A stretch of 64,000 bases of DNA. Source: Caldilineaceae bacterium. Lineage in GTDB: Bacteria > Chloroflexota > Anaerolineae > Caldilineales > Caldilineaceae. Below the pieces are notes generated by a model that saw only the letters and a program-made list of their open reading frames with translations, ran no database searches and was not told where the DNA came from. Position 1 is the stretch's first letter, and the number at the start of each line of letters is the position of its first letter. The translations under genes and the position numbers were made by a program. The stretch lies in assembly GCA_011523365.1 (NCBI GenBank), contig WTGY01000182.1, positions 1 to 64,000 on the forward strand. Reading direction: 5' to 3'. Below, piece by piece: positions 30,106 to 40,639 of the stretch.

Positions 30106-31155
30106 TCAGACTGAGCCGAAGAGCTCCCTGGACTGTTGGCAGGCTCTTCGGATCAGTGTGGGCACCTTGTGGCTGCTGTCGAGCTCCGGGCGCTGTTCAA
30201 TCCAACCTAACGACACCATACTCCTGATGAGAACAAATACGGGGAGAAGGTCGATGTCCGACTGGGATAGGGGGCGCTCCGTCAAATAGCCGGCTATTAT
30301 GGCTTCGCGGATTGTTTCAAAATGGGGATTGTCCTGGTAGTAGGAGATGGCTACCGCCAGCTCATACTGGTGCCATCCGAATCCTGAATCGTCGAAGTCG
30401 ATTATATGCACGTTCTCGCCGGTCGTGATGAGGTTTCCAGGGTGCAAGTCGGCGTGAATCAGGCTGTAGTTGGCTCGCTCTTTGCCATATTGGGAAAGGA
30501 GGTCATAGATTTTGTCGCGGCCGTAGATGATTTGCGCGCGATCTGCAGGCGTCAGGTCGGACTGCTCCCAAAAGGGACCCCAGAAGGGATATTCGCCCAT
30601 CAGTCCATCGGCGTCGAAGGCGTGGCGTTCGAATCCCTCCGGCAGTCTCCAATGTGTGGCCTGGTTATGGATGCGGGCAGCCAACTTGCCGACCTTGCGG
30701 AAGTAACTCGCCAGTCTGGAAGGATCGGTCTCTTGTTCAATGAGAGTTGCCATCGGGGTCCCTTCGACCCATTCCACCATGCTCACATACCTTGTCTGGG
30801 ACAGTTCAGGCAGGTTGAAGGGGACGAAAGCGTGTTTGTCTCTTGATAAGCGGGGCACAGGGGCGCCGATTCCTGACCGATTCAGGGCGGCAGTCCACTG
30901 AAATTCGCCGTGCAGTTCGGGAAGCGTATGGTAGCCGGGACGGTGAAAGCGGAAGACAAAGGGTTGACCGCACTCGGAGTCAACACGAAAAACAATGTTT
31001 TCAGAGTGTGAAACCAAGGAGATCGCCTTTGCGCCGATGTCCCAGTCGTTCAAGGCGCGAGCGGCGGAGGCCAGCAGTATTTCCTCTAATTGTGTTTCCT
31101 CCAGGAGCTGGCGCAGACCGTGCGCCGAACTCGCGTCAAGGCCGCGGCCTGCCAT
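30106..31155 (-). CDS. APH-family phosphotransferase (hydroxylysine-kinase-like?)
   Basis: Small-molecule kinase of the aminoglycoside phosphotransferase/homoserine-kinase-like fold. The Brenner motif HADLHPGN and the metal-binding HIIDFDDSGFG are intact. FRFHRPGYHT and MVEWVEGTPM are typical of the N-lobe and hinge. The open frame extends to 31275, but that would overlap the upstream gene. The ATG at 31155 follows AAGGA at proper spacing, giving 349 residues. It sits 92 bases after a class III PLP enzyme. In animals and some bacteria an APH-type kinase of this kind works with a class III PLP phospho-lyase on 5-hydroxylysine, so the pair may act on a hydroxylated amine. The substrate is inference. 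Confidence 0.75.
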   Translation of the reverse strand: MAGRGLDASSAHGLRQLLEETQLEEILLASAARALNDWDIGAKAISLVSHSENIVFRVDSECGQPFVFRFHRPGYHTLPELHGEFQWTAALNRSGIGAPVPRLSRDKHAFVPFNLPELSQTRYVSMVEWVEGTPMATLIEQETDPSRLASYFRKVGKLAARIHNQATHWRLPEGFERHAFDADGLMGEYPFWGPFWEQSDLTPADRAQIIYGRDKIYDLLSQYGKERANYSLIHADLHPGNLITTGENVHIIDFDDSGFGWHQYELAVAISYYQDNPHFETIREAIIAGYLTERPLSQSDIDLLPVFVLIRSMVSLGWIEQRPELDSSHKVPTLIRRACQQSRELFGSV

Positions 31156-31247
31156 TTCCGAATTCCTTAATCTGCCCTTTGTCGAAGGGGGGAGAGCTGC
31201 TCCGAACTGAAACGGACTCCTGCCTGCAGTGAAGCAACGCCTGCGGT

Positions 31248-32540
31248 TCAAGCATATTCGACTTGCCCTATACATTCTTCAAACGCGGTCAAGAAGAGGT
31301 CAGCGTGTTCCTTGGCGAATACGAGCGGAGGTCTGATCTTGAGAATGTTGCCCAAAGGGCCGGCACTGCCGATCAGGAATCCTCTTTCTCGCAATAGATT
31401 GACAACAGTGCCGGCGCCGTCCGCGTCCGGGCGTTTGGATTCTCGATCTTGTACCCACTCCATGCCGATGAAAAGACCGTGGCCGCGTACGTCGGCCAGA
31501 TGCTCGCAGCTGGTCTGAAACTTGGAAAGCTCGGCCCGGAGGTATTTGCCTACCTGTTCGACGCTGCTGGCGAGATCCTCATTTTCGACCACATCGATGA
31601 CCGCCATGCCGGCGGCGGCCTGCAGAGGGCTGGCCGCGAAGGTATTGAAGTATCGCTTCTTTCTGCGAAATTCATCGACCAGCGCGCTCGTCGCTGCCGC
31701 GCCGGCAACGGGCATTCCGTTGCCCATTGGCTTGCCCATGGTGACGATATCAGGGACGTAGCCGGTCGTCTGGTAGCCCCACCAGTCGCCTGTACGGCAG
31801 AATCCCGCCTGAACCTCGTCGGCGATTACGAGACCACCGGCGCCGCGCACTATTTCTGAGGCGCGTGGCATGAACTCGCATGGGATCGAAGGCAGTCCCT
31901 CGTTGGCGAAGATGGAGCAGACAAGCATGCCCGCCAGCGGAATGCCGTCGGTACGCAGACCGTCGATAGCGCGTTCGACCTCCACCAGATAGAGCTCCGC
32001 CAGCTCCGCATCGGACACGCCTTCCTGGATGGAACGGTAGCGCTGTGGGAAAGGAAAGGCGCGGATTTCCTTTGCCTTCTCGCCGTCAGTCTGCTGGCTG
32101 ACCCGAGTGAATTTGCTCACTTCGGCGCTGTTGCCATGGTAGGCGGAGTCGCTGCAGATGAAACCCCGGCCACCGGTTACGGCGCGGGCGATTTCGAGGG
32201 CCACTTCGTTGGCTTCCGTGCCGGTGCAGGTGAAGACAACGCTGGTCAGGTTGTCAGCGTGCAGGTTCGCCAGGCGCTCGGCGTAGTCAAGAACGGTTTC
32301 ATTCAGATAGCGGCTGTGAACGTTGAGCGTTTGGGCCTGGTTGTGCATGGCCTCGACTACGTGTGGATGGCAGTGACCGACACAGGGCACGTTGTTGTAC
32401 ATATCCAAGTAGCGCCGGCCGCTGTCATCGTAGAGCCAAACGCCTTCCCCGCGCACGATGTTGACCGGCCTTTCGTAGAAGATCGGCGCCCCGGCGCCAA
32501 GCAGATGATCACGGCGGGCCATCAGGTTTGTGGCAGTCAT
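31248..32540 (-). CDS. Class III aminotransferase-fold PLP enzyme (possible phospho-lyase)
   Basis: PLP enzyme of 430 residues. FTCTGTEANEVALEIAR binds the phosphate of PLP, IADEVQAGFCRTG carries the Asp and Gln that hold the ring, and TMGKPMGNGMPVAG holds the Schiff-base lysine. The protein resembles the AGXT2L group, which includes phospho-lyases for phosphoethanolamine and phosphohydroxylysine as well as true transaminases. The kinase next door favours the lyase idea. The open frame reaches 32630, but GGGAGAA just before the ATG at 32540 sets the start, 28 bases after the Rieske gene. Confidence 0.85.
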   Translation of the reverse strand: MTATNLMARRDHLLGAGAPIFYERPVNIVRGEGVWLYDDSGRRYLDMYNNVPCVGHCHPHVVEAMHNQAQTLNVHSRYLNETVLDYAERLANLHADNLTSVVFTCTGTEANEVALEIARAVTGGRGFICSDSAYHGNSAEVSKFTRVSQQTDGEKAKEIRAFPFPQRYRSIQEGVSDAELAELYLVEVERAIDGLRTDGIPLAGMLVCSIFANEGLPSIPCEFMPRASEIVRGAGGLVIADEVQAGFCRTGDWWGYQTTGYVPDIVTMGKPMGNGMPVAGAAATSALVDEFRRKKRYFNTFAASPLQAAAGMAVIDVVENEDLASSVEQVGKYLRAELSKFQTSCEHLADVRGHGLFIGMEWVQDRESKRPDADGAGTVVNLLRERGFLIGSAGPLGNILKIRPPLVFAKEHADLFLTAFEECIGQVEYA

Positions 32541-32568
32541 GTTTTCTCCCGTTGGATCGCAAATGGGT

Positions 32569-32967
32569 TCATGCTCCCACCTGTTCGTGTCTGTCGTCAA
32601 GGTCAACAACGATGTCGTTGCCAACAACACGCACGGGGTAGGTTTTGACTCTCACCGACGGATCGACGAGGCAGCGACCGGTGGCAATTTCAAAGGGCCA
32701 CTGATGCCATGGACAGCGCAGGACTTCACCTTCACCGTCGACATGCAGTTCTGCTTCATTGACGGAGGGGGGAGCAGGCGCGTTGATGCGGCCGGTCAGC
32801 TCACCGGTACAGAGAGGTCCACGTTTGTGCGGACAGATGTTGCGGAGCGCGTAGAGCTCGCCGTTGACATTGAAAACGCCGATGCCAGCGCGCCCGCGGA
32901 AGGGCACGACGATCTTGCGGTCACCGGGTGGGATCTCCCACACCTTGGCAATGACGACCCTGGTCAT
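32569..32967 (-). CDS. Rieske-type 2Fe-2S ferredoxin
   Basis: Small soluble Rieske protein of 132 residues with both cluster motifs, CPHKRG near residue 45 and CPWHQWPF near residue 85 (C-x-H and C-x-x-H). There is no membrane anchor, and nothing else is fused, so it is an electron carrier and not an oxygenase. The spacing between the motifs is longer than in most small Rieske ferredoxins because of an insert (APAPPSVNEAELHVDGEGE). Its ATG overlaps the stop codon of the upstream amidohydrolase by four bases (ATGA), which indicates translational coupling. Its partner oxygenase or reductase is not in the window. Confidence 0.88.
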   Translation of the reverse strand: MTRVVIAKVWEIPPGDRKIVVPFRGRAGIGVFNVNGELYALRNICPHKRGPLCTGELTGRINAPAPPSVNEAELHVDGEGEVLRCPWHQWPFEIATGRCLVDPSVRVKTYPVRVVGNDIVVDLDDRHEQVGA

Positions 32968-34103
32968 ACCAAGGCGTCTCCGATGCGCAGCATCTCCAAG
33001 GCGTTGTCAGCGAAGATACGTTGTTGCCACCCGGGGTCGAGCTTGGGAAAGGTTGTGACGGGGTCGTTCCAGTCGAAATGGGGAAAGTCGGAACAGTAGA
33101 CGAGCGTTTCGTCGGCGTGCAGCATTTCGAGAAACTGGTAGAGCTGCTCGGTCGTTTCGGCTTCGTGCATCGGCTGAGACCCGACACGAATATGCTCGCG
33201 GAAGTATTCGCTGGGCAGACGTTTGAGCCAGGGGGTCTGGTCGCGGATGGCCTTCCAGTCGGAATCCATGTGCCACATGACGGCCACAGCCCAGAGTTGC
33301 TGCGCCTCGGTCAGAGCGAACTTCAGGTTGGGGAACTTTTCGAAGACGCCTTCGCAGATCAGGGAAGAGGCGTGCGCGCTGGCCACGAAGGGCCGACTCA
33401 TGCGCGACTCCATGTAGTAGGTGGGGAAGCCGACGGGGGTGGGCGTGGTGCGGGCTGCGCCGCCGCCGCCACCGATATGGGCGACAACCGGCAGTCCATG
33501 CTCCTCACATGCTTCCCAGATTGGGTGGTAGAAGCGATTTCCGAACGGCATGCTCGTACCCATCGGCACCATCACCGCGACGGTGTCCTTTCGGTCTGCC
33601 AAGCGGTTAATCTCACTGACGGCCTGTGCCGGGTCGGACGGCGAGATGAGGATGGCGTTGACTACGCGGTTGTCCTTTTCGAGCCAGTGCTCGATAGTCC
33701 AGTCGTTGAAGGCGCGGCACAGAGCGGCGGCCCAGTCGGGATCGGGCAGGCCGGTGTAGCCGTAGAAGGGAGGAGGGCCGGTGAGAAGCGCGTAGTCGAT
33801 GTTCCAAGGATCGAGATGCTCGCGCTGCATAAACTCCAAGGAGAAGTTAAAGTCACGTTCCTTCAAGCCCGGGTCCTTCAGGTCAGAACGGTTGGTGCGG
33901 AAGGGAACATTGGAGTAGCCGGCGCTGGGAAGATGCAACCCCTGATCGATCAGGTGATTCTGCCAGAAAGTGGACAGGTAGGGCAGCAGCTGTTCGGGAC
34001 GTTCAAAGTTGTGGTGGACGTCGCAGTCGACGATCTTGACGCCTTCTTTGGGTTGGGCGGTCCAGCCTGGCGCCGAAATTGGGGCTGCTCCGATTTTTGT
34101 CAT
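32964..34103 (-). CDS. Amidohydrolase-2 family metal hydrolase (paralog 1)
   Basis: TIM-barrel metal-dependent hydrolase of the ACMSD/amidohydrolase-2 family, 379 residues. IVDCDVHHNF is the N-terminal metal motif, PVVAHIGGGGG a central His, ALTEAQQLW a further strand, and YCSDFPHFDWN the C-terminal Asp region. Family members decarboxylate or hydrolyse aromatic and heterocyclic acids. This one has no known substrate. Two paralogs occur upstream on the same strand, sharing D-x-D-x-H, FERPEQLLPYL/SSVEQLMPYL and the TDYPHWD-like ending. It is coupled to the Rieske gene by an ATGA overlap. Confidence 0.85.
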   Translation of the reverse strand: MTKIGAAPISAPGWTAQPKEGVKIVDCDVHHNFERPEQLLPYLSTFWQNHLIDQGLHLPSAGYSNVPFRTNRSDLKDPGLKERDFNFSLEFMQREHLDPWNIDYALLTGPPPFYGYTGLPDPDWAAALCRAFNDWTIEHWLEKDNRVVNAILISPSDPAQAVSEINRLADRKDTVAVMVPMGTSMPFGNRFYHPIWEACEEHGLPVVAHIGGGGGAARTTPTPVGFPTYYMESRMSRPFVASAHASSLICEGVFEKFPNLKFALTEAQQLWAVAVMWHMDSDWKAIRDQTPWLKRLPSEYFREHIRVGSQPMHEAETTEQLYQFLEMLHADETLVYCSDFPHFDWNDPVTTFPKLDPGWQQRIFADNALEMLRIGDALV

Positions 34104-34158
34104 GGGAAAATCTCCATACGCGCTGTCGAAATCTTGAAGTCTACTGCGAGCCAGGCGC

Positions 34159-35040
34159 TCACGGATCTGACTCGGCGGTTGCAGCGAATGAGACGCTTTG
34201 TCCGAAGGGATCCCCCTTCAGCCATACATCCCTCTGCGGGAAGGGAATCGAGATTCCCCGATCTTGCAGTCCATAGTAGATCGCTTCAAGGATTTCGCTC
34301 AGCGAAGAGAGCCGCTGCGCCGGATCATCGATCCAGTACTGAATCCGAAATAGAAGCGCGGAATCTGCGAACTCAACGAAGAATGTACGCGGCTCCGGGT
34401 CAGCCAATACGGCGGAATGGGCCGTGATTTGGGAATGAAGGATTTGGTGCACTGCGCCGATGTCGGTGCCGTAGGCAACTCCGATCTGGGACTCGATGCG
34501 CAGAATCTGGTCGGATTTCGTCCAGTTGTCGAGCCGCTGCGAGACCATCAGGGAGTTTGGCACGATTACTTCGGTATTGCTAAAGGTCTTAACAACTGTG
34601 GTGCGCAGGCTCATCTCCTGGACCGTTCCGCGGATTCCGTCGACTTCGATCACGTCTCCGTCGCGAATGGTGCCCTCGGTCATCAGGACCAGCCCGGCGA
34701 TGTAGTTACTGGCCAAGTTCTGGAGGCCCAGCCCCAACCCGATGCTGAGTGCGCCCAGGGGCACAAGAAAGATTGACAGATTGACACCGAGGAAGGTCAG
34801 AGACGTGTATATGCCCGCCAACAGGATCGACAGATAGACGACAGACCTGGCGAGGCGCTTACTTGTGGCCGTGAGCGGAAGCTCCGGCTCCACTCTCCTC
34901 TGAAACTGGCGGGCGGCGACTCTCGCCAGTATGTAAAAAAGGAGCACTGAGGCGACCGTGAGAAAGAGGTCGATCGGTGTCAGTGCGGTGCCTTGTATTG
35001 TTGTAACGGGCGTGTTCAGGAAGCGGATGATTCCGCCCAT
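34159..35040 (-). CDS. MscS-family mechanosensitive channel
   Basis: Small-conductance mechanosensitive channel of 293 residues. Three hydrophobic segments (about 22-42, 64-86 and 89-115) are followed by the pore helix GLGLGLQNLASNYIAGLVLM and the beta domain with GDVIEVDGIRGTVQEMSLRTT and VIVPNSLM, all classic for MscS. The C-terminal alpha/beta cytoplasmic cage is present. Such channels release solutes on osmotic downshock. Its place between amidohydrolase genes (20 bases after one, 55 before the next) suggests cotranscription and perhaps export of a small product, which is only inference. Confidence 0.9.
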   Translation of the reverse strand: MGGIIRFLNTPVTTIQGTALTPIDLFLTVASVLLFYILARVAARQFQRRVEPELPLTATSKRLARSVVYLSILLAGIYTSLTFLGVNLSIFLVPLGALSIGLGLGLQNLASNYIAGLVLMTEGTIRDGDVIEVDGIRGTVQEMSLRTTVVKTFSNTEVIVPNSLMVSQRLDNWTKSDQILRIESQIGVAYGTDIGAVHQILHSQITAHSAVLADPEPRTFFVEFADSALLFRIQYWIDDPAQRLSSLSEILEAIYYGLQDRGISIPFPQRDVWLKGDPFGQSVSFAATAESDP

Positions 35041-35060
35041 ACAGTTCTTCCAGGTCAGTT

Positions 35061-36176
35061 CTACGCCAGATTGTAGAATTGGCGGGCGTTTTCGGCCATG
35101 ATGTTGCGCCTGACTTCGAGCGGCAAAGTGGCAGGGAGCGCCCGGTCGGGAGAGTCAAAGTCCCAGTGCGGGTAGTCGGTTGCGAACATCAGCTTGCTCC
35201 CGTTGTCCATCTGTTCGAGAAGCTGGACGAAGTGTTCGTGTTGCCTGGGTTCTTCCATGGGCTGCGTGGAGAGCCAGAAGTGCTCCCGAATGTATTCAGA
35301 CGGCGCCTTTTTCAAATATGGCGTCTCCCGGCGGAGGCGTTTCCAGCTCTGATCCAGCCTCCATGCCAAGGAAGGCATCCAGGCGAAGCCGCCCTCGATG
35401 ATCACGATGCGCAGCTCGGGGAAGTGCTCGAAGACGCCTTCGCAAACGAGGCTGGCAACCTGTGCCTGGAAGGATTGAGCCATGCCGGTGTGATCTTCGA
35501 TGTAGTAGGAAGGCCAGCCGCCGCCGGTAAGGGGATGACCGGCACTGCCGCCGAAATGGATGCCTAAGGGCAGATCATACTCGAGGGCGGCCTCGTACAT
35601 CTTCCAGTATTTGCGCCGGCCCAGAGGCTCCTGGGTCCGAGTCACCAGGATCACTTGCACGAAGCCTTCGTGGCGGCCGAGGCGGTGAATCTCTTCGGCA
35701 GCGAGCTCGGCGTCCTCGTAGTTTACGAGGATCGAGGCCCTCAGCCGGGGTTCCAGCTCCAGCCATTCCGCGATTTGATAGTCATTGATGGCACGCGCAA
35801 GCTGCGCGCCGTACTCCTGGTTCACCTGTCCGCCGGCCCCTGTCAGGGGGTTCAAGATGCCATAGTCCATATCGAAGGCATCCAGCAGCTGCTCGCGCAT
35901 AAAGTCAAGGTCAGTGCCGGGAGGGCGTCCGCTGGGGGGCCAGGCATCGGTGCGGGCGGCGTTTGGTTGATGACGGGGGTAGCCGACGCCGTAATGCCCA
36001 CGCATTCCGATCATATTGTGATATTCCAGCCACTCAGTTGCCAAGTAATCGGTGATGGCCTGATTGAAAACGGGGTCGTCGTAGACATCAAAATTGTGAA
36101 TGTCAGTGTCGATTACCGCCAGTTTGGATTTCTCGGCGCTTTGCTTTTGTTCGGAAATCTCAAGTTCCAGCGTCAT
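35061..36176 (-). CDS. Amidohydrolase-2 family metal hydrolase (paralog 2)
   Basis: The second of three related metal hydrolases, 371 residues. Motifs: VIDTDIHNFD at the N-terminus, LGIHFGGSAGHP, IVIIEGGFAWMPSLAWRLD and FATDYPHWDFD. EGGFAWMP and the Trp-rich segments are nearly identical to paralog 3, so these two are closer to each other than to paralog 1. No signal peptide is visible, so it is cytoplasmic. Start ATG at 36176. It lies 11 bases after paralog 3 and 20 before the channel gene, which is operon-like spacing. The substrate is not known. Confidence 0.85.
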   Translation of the reverse strand: MTLELEISEQKQSAEKSKLAVIDTDIHNFDVYDDPVFNQAITDYLATEWLEYHNMIGMRGHYGVGYPRHQPNAARTDAWPPSGRPPGTDLDFMREQLLDAFDMDYGILNPLTGAGGQVNQEYGAQLARAINDYQIAEWLELEPRLRASILVNYEDAELAAEEIHRLGRHEGFVQVILVTRTQEPLGRRKYWKMYEAALEYDLPLGIHFGGSAGHPLTGGGWPSYYIEDHTGMAQSFQAQVASLVCEGVFEHFPELRIVIIEGGFAWMPSLAWRLDQSWKRLRRETPYLKKAPSEYIREHFWLSTQPMEEPRQHEHFVQLLEQMDNGSKLMFATDYPHWDFDSPDRALPATLPLEVRRNIMAENARQFYNLA

Positions 36177-36187
36177 GTCAGAACTCC

Positions 36188-37354
36188 TCAGAGTCGATAG
36201 AAAGAGCGGGCGTTTTCAGACCAGATATTTGCGTTGAGTGGTTCAGGCAAAGTTACCGGCCAGGCTTCACTGTCATCATCATAGTGCCAGTGCGGGTAGT
36301 CGGTCGCGAACATGAGCAACGTGTCCGACTCCAACTGTTCGATGGTCTGCAGGATGTAGCGGGGGTCGGGCGGTGCGCCTACCGGTTGCACTGTCAGACG
36401 CATGTGATCGCGGATGTAGTCGGAGGGAGCGCGCCTCACCCAGGGCGTATTGGAACGCAGACCCTTCCACTCCTTGTCGAGCCGCCACATGAGGGAAGGC
36501 ATCCAGGCGAATCCGCCTTCAATGAGGGCTATGCGCAGGTCGGGGAAGCGGTCGAATACACCTTCGGCGATGATGCTAATAACCTGGGACTGAAATACTT
36601 GTGCCATGCCTGCGTGCTCTTCAAGATATGTCGATGGCCAGCCGACAGGCGTCGGCGGGTTGCCGGGCGCGCCACCGAAATTAATTCCGACAACCAGATC
36701 GTGCTCGACGGCAGCGGCGTACAGCGGATCGTAGTAGCGGTTTCCGTAGGGGATATGGGAGCGCACGGGGAGGACCACCTGTACGAATTGCGGATGGCCA
36801 CCAAAGCGATGGATCTCCTCCGCGGCGCGGGCCGGGGCCTGACTGGGAACGACCAATGAGCCGCGTAGCCGCGGTTCGGGCGTCAACCACTCGTCGATTT
36901 GCCAGCGATTGGCCGCGGTGGCCAGGTCTGCGGACAGGTCCTCCTGCCGCACGCTCTGGACGCGATAGGAACAGTTCAGTATCCCTACTTCGGTGTTCCA
37001 CGGAGCCAGCGCCTGCTCCCGAACCAGCTGAAGAGTGGAGCCGGCCTGCCCGTCTTCCGCAGGAACAGATCCCGGTCGGGCCGAGGTAGGTGCGCCGCGA
37101 GGATAGTCGTTGGCGTGGGGACTGTTAAAGGCTGACCCGCGGATATAGTCCTGCCAGTAATCGGCCAGGTAGGGCATCAACTGTTCGACCGAAGACACCT
37201 CGTTGTGGATGTCGCAGTCGATCACTGCATGCGTGGGAGTGGGAGTCTGTCTCCCGTTGACGGGTTGCGCCGCGGTTTGAATGCGATTCGCCGGATTGTG
37301 GCCGTTTTCAGATGCTGCCGAACGCGGCTGCGGTGAATCGGCACTTGAAGTCAT
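36188..37354 (-). CDS. Amidohydrolase-2 family metal hydrolase (paralog 3, first gene of operon)
   Basis: The third related metal hydrolase, 388 residues, first gene after the promoter at 37.4 kb. After a low-complexity N-terminus of about 40 residues come AVIDCDIHNEVSSVEQLMPYL, VVGINFGGAPGNPPTPVGWP, LIEGGFAWMPSLMWRLDKEW and MFATDYPHWHYDDD. Metal ligands are expected at the D-x-D-x-H motif, the central His residues and the Asp of the last motif; the central GINFGG lacks the His seen in paralogs 1 and 2 (VVAHIGG, GIHFGG), which may mean altered metal binding. Function unknown. Confidence 0.85.
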   Translation of the reverse strand: MTSSADSPQPRSAASENGHNPANRIQTAAQPVNGRQTPTPTHAVIDCDIHNEVSSVEQLMPYLADYWQDYIRGSAFNSPHANDYPRGAPTSARPGSVPAEDGQAGSTLQLVREQALAPWNTEVGILNCSYRVQSVRQEDLSADLATAANRWQIDEWLTPEPRLRGSLVVPSQAPARAAEEIHRFGGHPQFVQVVLPVRSHIPYGNRYYDPLYAAAVEHDLVVGINFGGAPGNPPTPVGWPSTYLEEHAGMAQVFQSQVISIIAEGVFDRFPDLRIALIEGGFAWMPSLMWRLDKEWKGLRSNTPWVRRAPSDYIRDHMRLTVQPVGAPPDPRYILQTIEQLESDTLLMFATDYPHWHYDDDSEAWPVTLPEPLNANIWSENARSFYRL

Positions 37355-37412
37355 AGCTGCCTGCCCTCACGATTCGCTCAGTTTGGATTCCTTACCTTCT
37401 TGGGTTACGCAG

Positions 37413-37441
37413 ATTCTACCGCTTTGCTGCCTTGGCGTCAA
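37413..37441 (-). promoter_or_regulatory. Promoter of the seven-gene amidohydrolase operon
   Basis: On the minus strand TTGACG (37441-37436) and TAGAAT (37418-37413) are 17 bases apart. Transcription would begin near 37406, about 50 bases before the first start codon at 37354. Confidence 0.65.
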
Positions 37442-38608: not shown

Positions 38609-38893
38609 ATGGATGCCCAGACCCAGCCTCGCCAGCGACTTCTGTATCTGCATGCGAGGACGCCTAGCGTGTTCTCGGAGATACTAGGGTACACATTGAT
38701 AGAACCGGTCAAGGGTTTTCGGGTCGAAATCAGCGGCGGGGAGTTTGAATGGCCTTACACGACGGTACACGACGCCGTTGTTGACGGCTGGCAGATCGTT
38801 CAGTTCCCGCACTTGCAGTCCCCTTTCAGCGATACCGATCTCGATGTAGTCGGCTATGAGTTTGTCTTGCAGAAGATGGAGGTTATTCCATGA
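38609..38893 (+). CDS. Small protein of unknown function, coupled to PhyH
   Basis: A 94-residue protein I do not recognise. It has no membrane segment or cysteine pair. Aromatic and acidic residues are frequent (FEWPYTTVHDAVVDGWQIVQ). I take it as a real gene for three reasons: a good promoter ends 49 bases upstream, AGGAAC stands before the ATG, and its stop codon overlaps the start of the dioxygenase gene (ATGA at 38890-38893). A role with the dioxygenase is inferred from this coupling only. Confidence 0.6.
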   Translation: MDAQTQPRQRLLYLHARTPSVFSEILGYTLIEPVKGFRVEISGGEFEWPYTTVHDAVVDGWQIVQFPHLQSPFSDTDLDVVGYEFVLQKMEVIP

Positions 38894-39696
38894 CAGACAA
38901 CGAATACCTGTTGACTGACGTAGACATGGCGCGCTTTCTGGTAAACGGCTACCACGTTATCGAACTGGACCTGCCGGCGGGCCTAAACGAGCAGATTTCC
39001 GAAAAGCTGGACGGGTTGACCGCGAACCCGGGCGACGCGATTACCGAGTCGGTTCCCGACCTCTGGCAGGTGGTGGAGCATCCGCAGGTGCGAGGGGCGC
39101 TCATCAGTCTTCTTGGCGAGGACTATGCTGTAAATTCCCACCGGCACTGGCACTGCAAACTTCCCGGTTCAGGGGACATGCAGTGGCACCAGGACGGGAC
39201 GAACAACCGCGACACGACGATCGATCGCTTACTGGGGCTGTACTATCCACACACAATCACTGCGGAGATGGGCCCGACGGTCATCGTTCCGGGGACGCAG
39301 TTTCGCAACGCGCCGACTGACAGAATGGCGACCTACAGCAATATTCGCGGCCAAGTTCCTCTGACCGTGCCGGCAGGTACTTTCGCGATCACCCACTATG
39401 ATTTGTGGCATGGCACTGCCAGCAACAGGTCAGGTGGCAAGCGCCACATGATCAAGTTCCTGTTCAACCGCACGAGCGGGAACAGTGCCCCTTCGTGGAA
39501 CCATGACCCGGCGGTGCTGAACCGAGCTCGCGATTGGGACGCGCGCGACAAAGCGCAGGATGCCGTCAATATCCTTTCCTTCGGCAATCCACTTGGGGTC
39601 TCACAGAGCGATCACTACAAGGAGCGGATCATCCGCCAAGCATGTTGGCAAGAGTTGTTGGGAAATCAGGAGCAGCAGGAGGCAAGTCGATTTTAG
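38890..39696 (+). CDS. Phytanoyl-CoA dioxygenase-family protein
   Basis: Fe(II)/2-oxoglutarate-dependent oxygenase of the PhyH family, 268 residues. The iron ligands are visible as MQWHQDGT (H-x-D) and the distal His in YDLWHGTASN, followed by the Arg of GGKRHMIKF that would bind 2-oxoglutarate. IVPGTQFRN is the usual strand between them. Family members hydroxylate diverse small molecules, including in natural-product pathways, so phytanoyl-CoA need not be the substrate. A methyltransferase gene follows after 136 bases and suggests a small modification pathway. Confidence 0.85.
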   Translation: MTDNEYLLTDVDMARFLVNGYHVIELDLPAGLNEQISEKLDGLTANPGDAITESVPDLWQVVEHPQVRGALISLLGEDYAVNSHRHWHCKLPGSGDMQWHQDGTNNRDTTIDRLLGLYYPHTITAEMGPTVIVPGTQFRNAPTDRMATYSNIRGQVPLTVPAGTFAITHYDLWHGTASNRSGGKRHMIKFLFNRTSGNSAPSWNHDPAVLNRARDWDARDKAQDAVNILSFGNPLGVSQSDHYKERIIRQACWQELLGNQEQQEASRF

Positions 39697-39832
39697 AATT
39701 CCGGATCGAGTAGCGTACCTTGGGAGTCAGGTCAGCTTCTCAGTGCCGGAAGTTTCTTGTCTGGGAGGCGAATCACTCTCCCTTCCGACATTATTCACAG
39801 TCCAATTGAAAAGACGATGAGAGTTAGCGGAT

Positions 39833-40639
39833 ATGGATGAGCTTTCCAGTTACAATCGAGAGCGCTGGAATGGATTGTCACGCGCCGGAGTTTTGTACTC
39901 GCGGCCCAAATTGGAGTTGGACGAAGCCACAGCGCGAGAGATGGTGGACGAGGCGGGCTTGCTATGTGACGTGCAGGACAAACAGGTTCTCGTGCTTGCA
40001 GGCGGGGGAGGACAGCAGTCGGCCGCGTTGGGTCTTCTGGGGGCATGTGTAACCGTACTTGATCTGTCTGATGAGCAGCTAGCAAAGGATCGGGTGGCGG
40101 CCGAACATTATGGGCACTCGCCCGTTCTCCTGCAGGGCGACATGCGGGATCTTTCCCGATTCGCTGAAGACGCTTTCGACATCGTCTATCAGCCTTTTTC
40201 GATCAACTTCGTACCGGAGGTCGGCCCTGTCTTTGCCGGGGTGGCGCGTGTTCTCAAGGCGGGCGGTCTGTACCACGTGCAGTGGCACAATCCGTATACG
40301 CAGACCTTCAACCCTGACGACTACGATCCGGTCAGGGGATATTCATCCAATTCGATCTATAGAGACGGTGAGGTGGACGTCGTTGCCATCTATGGCACAG
40401 ATACCTGGGGCGTTGAAGGCGAGGATGGCTCCCAGATAGACATACCGGGCCCGAGGGAGTTTCGGCACACGATGCCAACGTTTATCAACGGCTTGATTGC
40501 CAGCGGGTTCGAGATTCTGGCATTCAGTGAGCATACGACCTGGGAGGAAGACCCGGAGCCGGGTACTTGGGAGCACTTCAAGGCGGTCAGCCCGCCGTAT
40601 CTGGCCTTCTGGACCAGGAGGATAGGCAGCAGCGTCTGA
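39833..40639 (+). CDS. Class I SAM-dependent methyltransferase
   Basis: Methyltransferase of 268 residues. The SAM-binding motif I reads VLVLAGGGGQQSAALGLLG, followed by VTVLDLSDEQL (acidic end of strand 2), GDMRDL and the post-motif FDIVYQPFSINFV. RVLKAGGLYHVQW closes the core. A sequence of about 100 residues after it is probably the substrate part. Such proteins methylate small molecules, and the acceptor cannot be told from sequence. It lies in the same direction as the PhyH gene with a 136-base gap, and is convergent with the sulfatase 31 bases away. Confidence 0.8.
   Translation: MDELSSYNRERWNGLSRAGVLYSRPKLELDEATAREMVDEAGLLCDVQDKQVLVLAGGGGQQSAALGLLGACVTVLDLSDEQLAKDRVAAEHYGHSPVLLQGDMRDLSRFAEDAFDIVYQPFSINFVPEVGPVFAGVARVLKAGGLYHVQWHNPYTQTFNPDDYDPVRGYSSNSIYRDGEVDVVAIYGTDTWGVEGEDGSQIDIPGPREFRHTMPTFINGLIASGFEILAFSEHTTWEEDPEPGTWEHFKAVSPPYLAFWTRRIGSSV

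Follow-up and report, generated by a model that had tools for sequence, protein, structure and literature searches.

Gene content, promoter and gene order

The window analyzed here comprises 64,000 nucleotides of a Caldilineaceae bacterium (Chloroflexota; contig WTGY01000182.1 of assembly GCA_011523365.1), and its subject is a minus-strand operon in which three proteins of the Pfam family PF04909 ("Amidohydrolase"), termed A1, A2 and A3, are encoded together with a Rieske ferredoxin. Calling of open reading frames (ORFs) in the window gave seven minus-strand ORFs, separated by 11, 20, 55, −4, 28 and 92 bases. In the direction of transcription these are A1 (36188..37354), A2 (35061..36176), an MscS-family mechanosensitive channel (34159..35040; PF00924, PF21082 and PF21088), A3 (32964..34103), a small Rieske [2Fe-2S] ferredoxin (32569..32967), a class III pyridoxal 5'-phosphate (PLP) enzyme (31248..32540) and an APH-family small-molecule kinase (30106..31155). 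The start of the Rieske gene overlaps the stop of A3 by 4 bases. For the PLP gene the ATG at 32540, preceded by GGGAGAAA, is the best start; the APH gene starts at 31155 or, in overlap with the PLP gene, at a further ATG at 31275. A first-pass annotation, made from the sequence alone, had described the same seven genes with this strand and these gaps, all of which the ORF calls reproduced, and each of its family names was matched in Pfam.

The promoter (TTGACG-17-TAGAAT, 37441-37413, minus strand) lies a short distance 5' of the A1 start codon (37354) and was identified by a scan together with a phylogenetic footprint. What the annotation had called a good promoter does not clearly exceed chance by its consensus alone (the scan gave 6 promoter-like sites, compared to 3.0 ± 1.8 in shuffles), but its hexamers are conserved. 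When the A1 upstream regions of 14 Caldilineaceae loci are aligned, GTTGACG...GGTAGAATCTGCG shows little or no variation and the flanks have diverged; the bases 3' of the −10 hexamer are also kept in this alignment.

Gene order was compared across 16 Caldilineaceae loci, and ORF maps were also made for three genomes of the same genus. The order A1-A2-MscS-A3-Rieske, with fixed gaps of 11, 19-21, 54-56 and −4 bases, recurs in 15 of the 16 loci, and these five genes form a firm unit. The position of the MscS gene is likewise kept in 15/16, which suggests more than a chance neighbourhood, and nothing ties the channel to a product. Conservation of order among Chloroflexota relatives was one check that the annotation had proposed; the five-gene core is fixed, but the PLP and APH tail is variable and sometimes missing. 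The gap between the Rieske and PLP genes varies from 18 to 322 bases and that between PLP and APH from −19 to 213; the two genes occur together in this order in 12/16 loci, and at least one of MscS, PLP and APH is missing or partial in three (L043, L044 and L045). The PLP and APH genes are thus probably a variable extension of the operon. In one locus (L006, G016:C118:5273-6562) the reading frame of the PLP gene holds a single TGA, and the gene may be broken there. Co-transcription is supported because the promoter is conserved and the gaps are fixed, and the earlier proposal of a single, probably catabolic operon, for which no substrate had been named, is upheld by the promoter, the gaps and the order.

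Family and active sites of A1, A2 and A3

Amidohydrolase-related dinuclear oxygenases (AROs) hydroxylate C–H bonds at a Mn/Fe or Fe/Fe site, and a small Rieske gene usually adjoins theirs (PMC10811679, PMC10401708, PMC7782822); AibH1H2, SfbO and PtmU3 are examples. All three window proteins exceed the Pfam cut-off for PF04909, and their nearest solved relatives are AROs. The top match of A3 in the PDB is SfbO (8SM6, 380 bits, 50% identity), compared to 53 bits for the mononuclear 5-carboxyvanillate decarboxylase. A2 matches AibH2 best (300 bits; AibH1, 166 bits), and A1 matches 8SM7, another ARO (268 bits), AibH1 (240) and AibH2 (217). In a maximum-likelihood tree the A1-type proteins group with AibH1 (99/90), the A2-type with AibH2 (97/90) and A3 with SfbO (100/99); given the long AibH1 and AibH2 branches in that tree, the placement of A1 and A2 is strong but not final. 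An independent duplication giving rise to A1 and A2, hinted at by their 48% identity, is unsupported by the tree. We also considered A3 as the SfbO orthologue and ruled this out: the true orthologues are found on contigs C133 and C185 of the same genome, and A3 is a sister lineage. By these relationships A1, A2 and A3 are assigned to the AROs and not to a hydrolase cascade.

The active-site residues agree with this assignment. In AibH2 the metals are held by D25, H27, H211, E265, D337 and H340, with D342 in the second shell; the alanine mutant of D342 has diminished activity. All seven residues are kept in A2 in 17/17 orthologues, which marks A2 as the predicted AibH2-like (alpha) catalytic subunit, and the same seven are kept in 84-85 of 85 A3 homologues (one homologue is truncated). 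A1 differs. It has His at the D342 position in 17/17 orthologues, like AibH1, and the H211 position, equivalent to H201 of AibH1, is Asn in 14/17, including the window, and His in 3. The window's A1 hence lacks the complete six-ligand set, and the mononuclear site of AibH1 (D24, H26, H201, E255 and D328) is incomplete in it as well. A1 is therefore best described as the alpha-prime (AibH1-like) partner in a heteromeric ARO, which has a degenerate metal site and probably no catalytic role; because its H201 equivalent is Asn, the A1-A2 pair was filed as a divergent relative of AibH1H2 and not as a strict member. The pairs from sister genera show the same split, with a degenerate A1 type and an intact A2 type. 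Of the sulfate contacts of SfbO, N67, R232 and R235 are found in every one of 85 A3 homologues and are absent from A1 and A2. At the SfbO W341 position, Phe is present in 74 A3 homologues, including that of the window, and Trp in 10.

The Rieske ferredoxin and probable electron supply

The Rieske protein has the C-x-H and C-x2-H motifs expected of its kind (CPH-x37-CPWH). Eighty loci with A3 were retrieved from Caldilineaceae, other Chloroflexota, Poribacteria, Latescibacterota and Gemmatimonadota, and a Rieske gene follows A3 in nearly all of them, the exceptions noticed being loci where the sequence ends. This pairing across phyla, together with the overlap of the two genes, points to the adjoining "amidohydrolases" as the partners of the Rieske protein; the annotation had placed the oxygenase partner elsewhere, and this was not borne out. 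By its context the ferredoxin is probably the electron donor of the neighbouring oxygenases.

In sister genera, in Litorilinea and on contig C137 of this genome, A1-A2 is followed by a Rieske gene of its own. These A1-A2-linked Rieske proteins are 46-52% identical and have a motif spacing of about 31-34, compared to x37 in the A3-type Rieske. The window's A1-A2 pair has no such gene: MscS and A3-Rieske come directly after it, and the single Rieske protein is of the A3 type. Judged by gene content, this A1-A2 pair must share the Rieske protein of A3 or borrow another. The simplest reading is that the operon is a merger of an A1-A2 module and an A3-Rieske module, in which both oxygenases would use the A3-type Rieske.

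The same genome holds four more adjacencies of PF04909 and Rieske genes, on contigs C133, C137, C185 and C36; two are SfbO orthologues and one (C137) is another A1-A2-Rieske set. With a further pair on C148, the genome has three A1-A2 pairs. The distant PF04909 gene beside a Rieske gene at L184 2076-3299 (G000:C36) encodes Glu in place of Asp342, as is reported for PtmU3.

The PLP enzyme and the APH kinase

The class III motifs DEVQxG and GKxMG are both present in the PLP enzyme, whose sequence places it nearest to phospho-lyases and not to transaminases. Its PDB matches are the phospholyase 5G4I (355 bits) and the ethanolamine-phosphate phospho-lyase 6TOR (298 bits), the next match being at 185 bits. 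It also resembles the C-terminal domain of the PRK06148 fusions; its scores are below the NCBIfam cut-offs (422 of 1128 bits for PRK06148 and 347 of 973 for PRK06149), but these models span a longer multi-domain fusion, and a domain standing alone should fall short of them. A PbfA-type identity, (R)-1-hydroxy-2-aminoethylphosphonate ammonia-lyase, was rejected because the score of 208.7 falls far short of the 525 cut-off. The catalytic motifs of the APH protein (HADLHPGN and DFDD) are intact, and its closest solved relative is 6EF6 (140 bits), named only "aminoglycoside phosphotransferase". Three other Chloroflexota loci encode fused APH-PLP proteins in the vicinity of A3-Rieske, at a distance of several kb and on the opposite strand. 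The window's kinase was considered as a split-off of the kinase domain of such fusions, and this was ruled out since the two do not match at 1e-3. In Poribacteria (L053 5594-6799) A3-Rieske is immediately preceded by a PhyH gene and a class III gene; this class III gene is closest to glutamate-1-semialdehyde aminomutase and was set aside as support for a role of the window's PLP enzyme.

Comparison with known systems

The aib cluster of Rhodococcus wratislaviensis, in the order aibH1-aibH2-aibG-aibF, encodes 2-aminoisobutyrate monooxygenase (PMC7782822, PMC10401708). The window operon resembles AibH1H2-AibG-AibF in its adjacent non-catalytic and catalytic PF04909 subunits, in the ligands of the catalytic subunit and in the downstream Rieske gene. 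Unlike in aib, MscS and a second ARO are situated between A2 and the Rieske gene, and AibF, AibT and the downstream aib genes are absent from the operon; the metal site of A1 is more degenerate than that of AibH1. A3 resembles SfbO of Litorilinea aerophila (8SM6, PMC10811679) in its ligands, in the N/R/R oxyanion contacts and in the downstream Rieske gene, but it is only half identical in sequence, has Phe in place of W341, and coexists with the true SfbO orthologues. PtmU3 of the platensimycin pathway is also a PF04909 dinuclear hydroxylase, and its similarity to A3 is much lower (66 bits). The PLP enzyme differs from the PRK06148 fusions in standing alone, beside a kinase whose sequence does not match the fused domain.

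AROs were first described within the last few years, only a handful have been studied, and most such genes are still annotated as amidohydrolases. The kind of enzyme and its association with a Rieske protein are already published. In the literature that we searched, we found no description of a heteromeric and an SfbO-type ARO on one transcript with one Rieske protein, a channel, a kinase and a phospho-lyase-like enzyme, nor anything on this gene set in sponge symbionts. The operon thus brings together two different ARO types with apparently one Rieske protein between them, and provides a defined gene set for finding natural ARO substrates. A relative of A1-A2-Rieske is also present in SfbO's own genome.

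Interpretation and rival explanations

We interpret the operon as encoding two AROs and one Rieske ferredoxin that hydroxylate C–H bonds, and assign this reading, not counting any kinase or phospho-lyase step, a probability of about 0.8. A1 and A2 would pair as a heteromer of the AibH1H2 type, with the dinuclear site (Mn/Fe or Fe/Fe) in A2 and no catalytic role for A1, and A3 would be a separate SfbO-type oxygenase. A reductase encoded elsewhere would reduce the Rieske protein, which would reduce the dinuclear sites in turn; these could then activate O2 and hydroxylate unreactive C–H bonds of small, probably amine-containing substrates. The A3 pocket appears fit to bind an oxyanion, for example a sulfonate, a phosphonate or a sulfate. 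Several points weigh against this reading. The enzymatic activity, metal content and electron transfer of A1-A2, A3 and the Rieske protein are predicted from sequence. No reductase gene equivalent to AibF is present in the operon, and a genome-wide search for PF00175 found a single protein, other flavoprotein reductase families not having been searched. The second-shell residues of A2 are Arg/His/Met/Trp, compared to Gln/His/His/Phe in AibH2, and the substrate is therefore probably not 2-aminoisobutyrate; action of A1-A2 on this compound is doubtful. Position 280 of the SfbO chain as numbered here is Asp, in contrast to the Tyr280 of PMC10811679, and this contact was left out of the comparison (N67, R232, R235 and W341 agree). 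The proposed kinase and phospho-lyase step is weakened by the missing match between the APH protein and the fused kinase domains and by the absence of PLP and APH from some relatives. In that step, the kinase would phosphorylate the new hydroxyl and the PLP enzyme would eliminate phosphate and ammonia to give a carbonyl product, a course that would be chemically reasonable for an amine substrate but is speculative and rather unlikely.

The first-pass annotation had favoured three metal-dependent hydrolases or decarboxylases that process a ring or amide compound stepwise, with the Rieske protein serving an oxygenase elsewhere. Membership of all three proteins in PF04909, many of whose characterized members are hydrolases or decarboxylases, is in keeping with this account, but the mononuclear decarboxylases score far below the solved AROs, A2 and A3 retain every dinuclear ligand, including the acidic residue reported to occur only in dinuclear members, and the Rieske gene overlaps A3 and accompanies it in several phyla. 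A stepwise hydrolase pathway was rejected on the ligands and the nearest solved relatives, and we consider the account as a whole very improbable. It is somewhat less improbable, yet still clearly so, that only A3-Rieske is active as a monooxygenase and that A1-A2, having lost its own Rieske, is inactive or re-purposed. The A3 type of the single Rieske protein, the separate Rieske genes of A1-A2 in sister genera and on C137, and the better conservation of A3 (median identity 95%, compared to 90% for A2 and 87% for A1) speak for it; an idle pair would be expected to decay, however, and the A2 ligands are kept in all 17 orthologues and the A1-A2 order with a constant 11-base gap.

Two further proposals are compatible with the oxygenase reading. 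The PLP and APH genes may be unrelated passengers, on the transcript by position only, to which we give slightly less than an even chance: L043, L044 and L045 lack them in whole or in part, their gaps range from −19 to 322 bases, and the kinase does not match the fused domains, but they do occur together in this order in 12 of the 16 loci, and the fusions lie near A3-Rieske elsewhere, if at a distance and on the other strand. The other proposal is that the A3 substrate is 2-aminoethylphosphonate- or taurine-like, with a divergently encoded PhyH oxygenase in the same pathway. In its favour, A3 shows no variation at N67, R232 and R235, N-substituted 2-aminoethylsulfonates are dealkylated by SfbO, whose cofactor also responds to 2-aminoethylphosphonate, and PhyH genes recur beside A3. 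Against this, SfbO's own natural substrate is not known, the PLP enzyme is far below the PbfA cut-off, and the genome has 114 PhyH-family matches, about one per 50 kb (none in 13 of 14 control genomes), which makes nearness to a PhyH gene weak functional evidence; we regard the proposal as unlikely. Similarly unlikely is a scheme in which the AibH1H2-type and SfbO-type enzymes, both Mn/Fe dependent, share one Rieske protein and act successively on one oxyanion-bearing amine, the hydroxylated product then being phosphorylated and cleaved by the phospho-lyase.

Distribution of A3 and neighbouring genes

All 17 genomes of the genus encode A3 (89-100% identity). No other genus sampled in the family yielded it; these have SfbO orthologues or nothing. 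The A3 proteins of Poribacteria, of some Latescibacterota and of other Chloroflexota are 71-81% identical to the window's A3, and the A3-Rieske pair is highly conserved across these unrelated phyla, with A3 at 71-98% identity. In the A3 tree Poribacteria, Caldilineaceae, other Chloroflexota and three Latescibacterota form separate groups. As identity is high across phyla and A3 is absent from close relatives, lateral transfer of A3 is suggested, with loss as the alternative. Judging from record names, most A3-bearing bins presumably come from marine sponges. Tandem duplicate A3 genes, 69-73% identical to the window's A3, are found in other Chloroflexota (L085, L088, L096 and L101).

Divergent from the operon and outside it, the plus strand at 38609..40639 encodes a 94-residue orphan (38609-38893), the PhyH-family iron/2-oxoglutarate (Fe/2OG) oxygenase (38890-39696) and a methyltransferase (39833-40639), whose positions are kept across the genus. 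The orphan ORF has no Pfam match; its stop overlaps the PhyH start, and related ORFs are present in several other loci.

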